Shown here piece after piece: positions 41,340 to 42,019 of a stretch of DNA of 64,000 bases. Each line of letters begins with the position of its first letter. Within the stretch, counting starts at the first letter, position 1. Position numbers and translations under genes: made by a program. Under the pieces are notes generated by a model. It was not told the DNA's origin. It was given only the letters and a program-made list of their open reading frames with translations, and did not search any database. The stretch is from Margaritispora aquatica (Eukaryota; Ascomycota; Leotiomycetes; Helotiales; Discinellaceae). Location of the stretch: positions 62,001-126,000 of the forward strand of contig VJWN01000016.1 of NCBI GenBank assembly GCA_007644065.1, in the 5' to 3' direction.

Positions 41340-41880
41340 ATGTAATTGGAATTAGGATTTGGAGTTTAGCAATATCAATGAATTATTTTTGACCCTCTAT
41401 ATTCTCACCTTTGCTCAAATGTGAATGTAATTGCAGTGATCATACCGTCGCCGTTCAATATGCACAATATTCTTCCTCCAAAGCGTACTCGAAACCTGCC
41501 TTTATTTTATTGTAAATTGAGCCTATTGGTTAGGTCTCCAGTTCACTGATAGAAGCTATACAGAACGCTTCCACATTTCATCACATTTCGATCCTCTCGC
41601 AAGTCATGCCCTATGGATGTGAAAATAGTTAAATTCGAATACCAATCAGCTTTAACACAAAAAGATTCTTGCTTCTCAATCAACATAATTCTGCTTCGTA
41701 CAATCACCCCTCGAGCTCCATTTAACCCAGCATCAATAGCGGGGTCCTCTCCCCACTCTTGCATCCGGAATTACCCCGCCACCGGCACATTTTTCAAGAA
41801 CAAAAAAAAATAAAAAAGTGCAAGACATTATTGCCTCAATATTCTTTTAAGGAAGAAAAATGCAAAAAGTTGTTTTTGTT
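41340..41880. other. Intergenic
   Basis: 3' UTR of the cupin gene and trailer of tRNA-Tyr. No gene-like frame. Confidence 0.55.
41864..41868 (-). terminator. Pol III terminator of tRNA-Tyr
   Basis: TTTTT on the minus strand, 12 nt after the last base of the tRNA. Confidence 0.75.
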
Positions 41881-42019
41881 TCCCTCAGGCGCGAGTCGAA
41901 CGCTACATGTATCCGTTAGCGGATACCTGAGGAGGATATTGGGGTAACACATACCGCGACATTCCGGTGAGACTGATCAATTACAGCCGGACGCCATAAA
42001 CCAACTAGACGACCGAGGG
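41881..42019 (-). tRNA. tRNA-Tyr(GTA) with two intervening sequences
   Basis: Minus-strand cloverleaf. The acceptor is CCCTCGG/CTGAGGG (one G-U) with C1-G72 and A73, the known eukaryotic TyrRS identity elements. The D-arm GTCTAGTTGGTTTATGGC has A14, G18 and G19. The anticodon stem TCCGG/CCGGA is perfect, and the loop CTGTAA carries anticodon GTA at 41984-41982. A 12-nt intron (41980-41969) sits after A37, as expected since nuclear tRNA-Tyr genes carry introns there. After the variable loop ATGTC (41962-41958), the T-stem starts GCG and is then broken by a 52-nt insertion (41954-41903). It resumes CG-TTCGACT-CGCGC. Without the insertion the T-stem is GCGCG/CGCGC, five perfect pairs, and the mature tRNA is 75 nt. 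A Pol III terminator follows. Confidence 0.82.
41903..41954 (-). other. 52-nt intron-like insertion in the tRNA T-stem
   Basis: It begins GTATGT, has GCTAAC with the branch A 14 nt before the end, and ends ATGTAG. These are the donor, branch and acceptor signals of the protein-gene introns in this window, and 52 nt is within their range. It lies between T-stem positions 51 and 52; the exact cut is ambiguous by one G. It also contains a perfect 7-bp hairpin (GTATCCG, loop CTAA, CGGATAC). Upstream of that is CCTCAGG, able to pair with the 3' acceptor strand CCTGAGG. Confidence 0.75.

Follow-up and report, generated by a model that had tools for sequence, protein, structure and literature searches.

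The window, by which we mean the whole 64,000-nucleotide stretch of DNA analysed here, carries on its minus strand a tRNA-Tyr gene with the anticodon GTA that is interrupted twice, by an intron in the anticodon loop and by an insert in the T stem (Table 1). The insert lies between T-stem positions 51 and 52 and has the arrangement GTATGT...GCTAAC...TAG; its junction can slide by one base, because the upstream exon and the insert each end in G. The original prediction had described a tRNA-Tyr(GTA) gene with a 12-nt anticodon intron and a 52-nt T-stem insert at 51/52, which matches the sequence to the base, and the three splice signals that it had named are present where it had placed them. Removal of both inserts was expected to restore an intact tRNA. 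Indeed, their excision leaves a 75-nt molecule with C1-G72, A73 and GTA, and all cloverleaf pairs tested are standard, with D-stem 13:22 set as unpaired in all three copies tested. ARAGORN, which models anticodon-loop introns only, returned zero tRNAs as run on the window.

Table 1 Features of the tRNA-Tyr(GTA) gene of the window (minus strand, 42019-41981 to 41902-41881)
Feature	Position	Strand	Basis
tRNA-Tyr exon 1: acceptor 5' strand, D arm, anticodon 5' side, GTA, A37	41981..42019	minus	Sequence, pairing
Canonical 12-nt anticodon-loop intron, 37/38	41969..41980	minus	Intron at the same place in the L003 and L004 tRNA-Tyr genes
Exon 2: anticodon 3' side, variable region, T-stem 5' part GCG	41955..41968	minus	Sequence, alignment of copies
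52-nt T-stem insert, spliceosome-type intron	41903..41954	minus	Sequence, intron-signal score
Donor GTATGT of the T-stem insert	41949..41954	minus	Same hexamer in 6 of 22 coding introns
Branch-site motif GCTAAC, 12 nt from the insert 3' end	41915..41920	minus	Best-scoring motif at 8-18 nt in coding introns
29-nt conserved 3' part of the insert: hairpin with CTAA loop at the branch site and base at the 3' splice site	41903..41931	minus	Fold, comparison of copies
Acceptor TAG of the T-stem insert	41903..41905	minus	Sequence, score
Exon 3: T stem 52-53, T loop with B-box core, acceptor 3' strand, A73	41881..41902	minus	Sequence, pairing
CTTTTTG run downstream, putative Pol III terminator	41860..41880	minus	CTTTTTTG at the corresponding place of the L002 copy

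The window also encodes an RNA-dependent RNA polymerase whose best named relatives, among the best 120 of 642 matches, are found in Cadophora, Oculimacula, Leptodontidium and comparable genera of the Helotiales, with identities of about 50%.

We surveyed the genome (42.4 Mb in 49 contigs) for tRNA-Tyr genes, and BLAST searches with either the window gene or an insert-free copy (L003) as the query returned the same four places. Two of these four genes carry a T-stem insert, namely the window gene and an unlinked tRNA-Tyr gene (L002, C2:1792.6k) whose insert, of 51 nt, lies at exactly the same site. The remaining two, L003 (C2:193.6k) and L004 (C47:2659k), possess the anticodon intron only and lack the T-stem insert. 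The comparison of tRNA-Tyr genes that had been proposed as a check thereby yielded four places with the insert in two, within this one genome. Given that a second gene carries an insert at the same site, its presence is not a matter of chance. The match between the window gene and L002 spans positions 17-195 of the 201-base query, and since it ends there, the wider flanks of the two genes are not recognisably common. About 80 bases downstream of the L002 tRNA-Tyr gene, on the other strand, the stretch GAATGTCGCG (L002 1437-1446) occurs again, similar to the one in the tRNA variable region and T stem.

The spliced tRNAs of the window gene and L002 are identical except for two of the 75 positions, and these two make up one compensated acceptor pair (2:71, T-A to C-G). 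Their inserts, on the other hand, differ in 14 of 52 aligned columns, including one gap, and the rate of change was lower in the exons than in the insert (Fisher p 6e-5). Within the insert, the 5' part drifted between the copies, while donor positions +1, +2, +5 and +6 and the 3' part were kept. Relative to the insert-free gene L003, the window gene shows 13 exon differences, ten of which fall in five pairs and three at unpaired positions. The five pairs (2:71, 4:69, 29:41, 49:65 and 52:62 in standard numbering) changed on both sides with pairing kept, and we observed no one-sided pair change between the two genes. One of these compensated pairs, 49:65, spans the T-stem insert. Because all ten paired differences from L003 sit in compensated pairs, a pseudogene is unlikely. 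It had been argued beforehand that several intact tRNA-Tyr copies elsewhere, together with an absence of reads spliced at the insert, would point to a pseudogene; two of the four places are indeed free of the insert, but the other two bear it and show compensation. Such a contrast between exons and insert would be expected of a working tRNA whose insert can be removed, and natural selection appears to maintain the T-stem insert.

For comparison with spliceosomal introns, we curated a reference set of 22 introns that interrupt proteasome and Ras-family genes in this genome. Of 25 gaps examined, four showed no clear intron and were left out (L093, the second of L094, L102 and L110), and one further intron from L104 was added; 13 of the resulting introns came from a frame-checked script and nine were delimited by eye (L099, L101b, L104a-c, L105a-b, L109a-b). 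The coding introns are 46-152 nt long with a median of 54 nt, and both inserts, at 52 and 51 nt, fall within the main length class of 46-64 nt, to which 17 of the 22 belong. Their most frequent donors are GTATGT (six introns), GTAAGT (four) and GTACGT (four), and their acceptors are TAG (13), CAG (8) and AAG (1). GCTAAC stands 12 nt from the 3' end in both inserts, and the best branch motif of the 22 coding introns lies at 8-18 nt.

We scored introns as the sum of donor, branch and acceptor, with donor and acceptor profiles taken from the 22 introns and branch weights set by hand. The insert of the window gene scored 23.4, equal to or above all 22 coding introns in a leave-one-out comparison, and only one of 127,896 52-mers on both strands of the window reached this value, namely the insert itself. 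The L002 insert scored 18.7, equal to or above 9 of the 22 coding introns (leave-one-out), a value that none of 127,898 51-mers of the window reached. The two donors, GTATGT and GTTAGT, differ from each other at positions +3 and +4 and are each one position away from GTAAGT; GTTAGT was the donor of none of the 22 coding introns. An unsupervised count of donors over 212 kb of loci, which compared hexamers followed by a branch site and acceptor with a control, recovered GTAAGT (10 vs 1) and was too weak for the donors of the inserts (GTATGT 7 vs 6; GTTAGT 0 vs 2). An origin of the insert from an introner or repeat was ruled out: the 24-nt insert core, with at most three mismatches, is found at two places of the genome, both of them tRNA-Tyr genes.

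The conserved 29-nt 3' part folds into the same minimum-energy hairpin in both inserts. It consists of a 7-bp stem, GTATCYG/CRGRTAC, over the branch-motif loop CTAA, and a weaker extension includes the 3' splice site. The 29 hairpin columns contain three changes, all neutral to pairing (a compensated pair plus a U-A to U-G change), as against 11 changes in the remaining 23 columns of the insert. The fold energy was unexceptional compared with shuffled sequences (z -1.49 and -0.29). CTAA with a closing stem of more than four pairs occurred once among 264 cases in the window (both strands), and this was the insert's own; among the 22 coding introns, a CTNA loop was closed by five pairs at most, in a single case, and by 0-2 in the rest. 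The branch-site hairpin is atypical of mRNA introns. We read it as a structure that would present the branch site and prevent mispairing of the intron with the tRNA body. It could also point to another enzyme, and a 7-bp stem at the branch site, which could impede pairing with U2, speaks against the spliceosome. The fold of the whole window precursor (z -1.53, with a normal acceptor stem) is indecisive between the readings; the L002 piece used in the precursor fold and in an early comparison was a few bases off at both ends.

On the minus strand, the insert also contains CCTCAGG (41926-41932; TCTCAGG in L002), which is exactly complementary to the 3' acceptor strand (41883-41889), and its single change between the copies tracks the acceptor change at position 71. 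Among 5000 shuffles each, 123 and 96 reached such a 7-nt complementarity. It may mask the acceptor strand until splicing and so delay end processing, or it may be due to chance.

A search for further tRNAs with such introns, which had been suggested together with the original prediction, recovered only the two known tRNA-Tyr genes among the places and matches inspected. The pattern of T loop, AG and CTAAC matched 54 places of the genome, compared with 251 for a reversed control; all 54 were read, and two were the known insert-bearing genes. Two others, L122 and L128, have T-loop-like letters, but ARAGORN finds no tRNA in them. In a scan with the tRNA model RF00005, 62 of 1722 candidates were scored, giving 67 matches, 61 of them over the cut-off. 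ARAGORN fitted 21 of the 22 matches of at least 94 nt, the exception being L142, and Infernal alignments of 10 of 20 long matches revealed intact T arms. The scan is an incomplete inventory, since even the insert-free tRNA-Tyr genes L003 and L004 are missing from its list. The matches of this genome to U6 (2), U3 (3) and SRP RNA (1) cover the full model at about model length, with no room for such an intron, so that further non-coding genes of this genome lend no support to splicing of this kind. As expected, the tRNA pattern gave no match in viral contigs and prokaryote genome contigs.

The scan brought up several further observations. One candidate, L142 (G000:C25:111021-111118), scored 27.6 bits, below the Rfam cut-off, and covers model positions 7-64 only; it has T-loop letters and a long insert on the anticodon side, is not called as a tRNA by ARAGORN and is perhaps a decayed tRNA gene. 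Two tRNA genes (L042 155-299 and L050 153-306) contain anticodon-loop inserts of about 70-85 nt, the longest among the RF00005 matches inspected, and the anticodons that ARAGORN calls for them look unreliable. Four 60-nt tRNA matches (G000:C47:1231118, C9:65528, C46:373427 and C1:2107147) all scored 26.3 bits, below the cut-off, and perhaps represent a tRNA-derived repeat. Contig C38 of the same genome (G000) holds dense clusters of organelle-type tRNAs and is apparently mitochondrial; its stretch near position 5-7 kb is found again near 39-41 kb, which fits the overlap of a circular map.

Judged from sequence, the window probably contains a functional nuclear tRNA-Tyr gene that combines a tRNA-endonuclease intron at 37/38 with a U2-type spliceosomal intron at 51/52. 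Among the three options left by the original prediction, i.e., a spliceosomal intron, a second endonuclease intron or a pseudogene, the spliceosomal intron fares best, with genome-like signals kept and compensatory changes in the exons. We also lean towards the further proposal that maturation of this tRNA would obligatorily involve two independent machineries, the tRNA splicing endonuclease TSEN removing the anticodon intron and the spliceosome the T-stem intron. The latter intron would carry a hairpin under selection that displays the branch site, and half of the tRNA-Tyr genes identified here would be spliceosome-dependent.

The gene structure, the second copy, the compensatory evolution of the exons, the genome-like intron signals and the conserved branch-site hairpin form the basis for this reading, from which we infer transcription of the gene with the T-stem intron, spliceosomal removal of that intron, the role of the hairpin and an order of events. 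The precursor is probably a Pol III transcript that depends on the internal A and B boxes. The spliceosome would then remove the T-stem intron, with the conserved hairpin holding the branch site in a loop near the 3' splice site, and only afterwards could the T arm form. The intron at 37/38 would be taken out by the tRNA endonuclease as usual.

An alternative, which we regard as unlikely, is that the insert is a second TSEN intron at an ectopic site in the T arm, cut at a fold resembling a bulge-helix-bulge (BHB), as in the red alga Cyanidioschyzon merolae. The T- and D-arm introns of this alga are treated in the literature as BHB-type. A passage of PMC9602550 describes a T-arm intron at 53/54 in a nuclear tRNA of C. 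merolae, and PMC3978253 speaks of BHB-mediated disruption and of many ectopic introns without a defined BHB in the nucleomorph of Guillardia theta. In our two copies, a relaxed geometry can be drawn with 4-nt bulges and an ATGT/ATGT helix containing two G-U pairs. It was matched by 26 of 2000 shuffles for the window gene and 242 of 2000 for L002, and, judging from the positions, this helix would require an opened anticodon stem and T loop. A strict 3-4-3 BHB does not form at the junctions of the T-stem insert, where 2 or 3 of the 4 central pairs are available in either register of both copies. This says little against TSEN, because the genuine anticodon introns of the four tRNA-Tyr genes fail the same geometry with 1, 1, 2 and 2 of 4 strict central pairs, and we dropped the absence of a strict BHB as an argument against the endonuclease. 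The case against a second TSEN intron rests instead on the spliceosomal anatomy and on what the copies kept, as it leaves the series GT...CTAAC...TAG and the retained donor positions unexplained.

It is also conceivable that the insert killed the gene and that both copies are pseudogenes derived from one duplication, a loss that could be tolerated in the presence of two insert-free tRNA-Tyr genes. The low number of exon changes relative to the insert (2/75 against 14/52, with the exon changes forming one compensated pair), the compensation of 5 out of 5 changed pairs relative to L003 and the retention of donor and branch site make this very improbable. We give a similarly slim chance to another RNA enzyme that would read the hairpin and cut, such as an Ire1-like or RNase III-like activity acting together with tRNA ligase. 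Conservation of the hairpin beyond the splice signals, including one compensated pair, is in its favour; however, the insert junctions, compared by eye, do not fit the HAC1 loop motif, which is CNG/CNGN, and the spliceosomal signals would have to be a coincidence. Finally, the insert might stay in an RNA with a non-translational role, given that the whole precursor of the window copy folds with a normal acceptor stem. We find this scarcely credible, as the compensated T-stem changes and the tRNA-Tyr identity elements point to a mature tRNA, and a 52-nt bulge in the T arm should obstruct the elongation factor and the ribosome.

If the reading as a spliceosomal intron is true, the spliceosome can process the precursor of a tRNA in the absence of mRNA capping and of coupling to Pol II, and a tRNA gene interrupted in the T arm can still be transcribed and its product restored. 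The supply of a tRNA can then depend on the activity of the spliceosome, and tRNA finders limited to anticodon-loop introns can overlook functional genes.

Nuclear tRNA introns are usually ascribed to the tRNA endonuclease. An ordinary intron of this kind at 37/38 is present as the first intron of the same gene, from which the T-stem insert differs in position, length and signals. No spliceosomal intron in a tRNA appeared in the titles and opening lines of abstracts of open-licence papers among the matches listed. Like the tRNAs with T- and D-arm introns of C. merolae, the present gene is a nuclear tRNA gene split in the T arm and the anticodon loop together; unlike them, it is split at 51/52 instead of 53/54, and the passage on the alga, which notes that little is known of the processing of these introns, describes no GT-branch-AG anatomy (PMC9602550). 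Spliceosomal introns in non-coding RNA have likewise been reported for ascomycete rDNA and Rhodotorula U2, according to titles cited in PMC2586383, where the hosts are rRNA or U2 and not tRNA. The U3 snoRNA of fungi resembles our case in having canonical splice signals inside a small structured RNA, with a typical branch-to-acceptor distance of 15 nt; in contrast to the T-stem insert, the U3 introns are nearly confined to the 5' stem-loop of the snoRNA, and according to the same excerpt, from 2017, frequent interruption is known among small structured RNAs for U3 and U6 alone (PMC5832005). With fungal U6, as far as the source excerpt describes it, the tRNA-Tyr gene would share an mRNA-type intron within a short Pol III RNA, whereas the host here is a tRNA that also has an intron of a different class, and U6 itself belongs to the spliceosome. 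An excerpt of PMC10484740 reports that U6 snRNA has an mRNA-type intron in Schizosaccharomyces and in other fungi, and that its presumed origin is reverse splicing near the catalytic nucleotides; the T-stem insert of tRNA-Tyr, if spliceosomal, bears on the ways, such as reverse splicing, by which non-coding RNAs gain introns.
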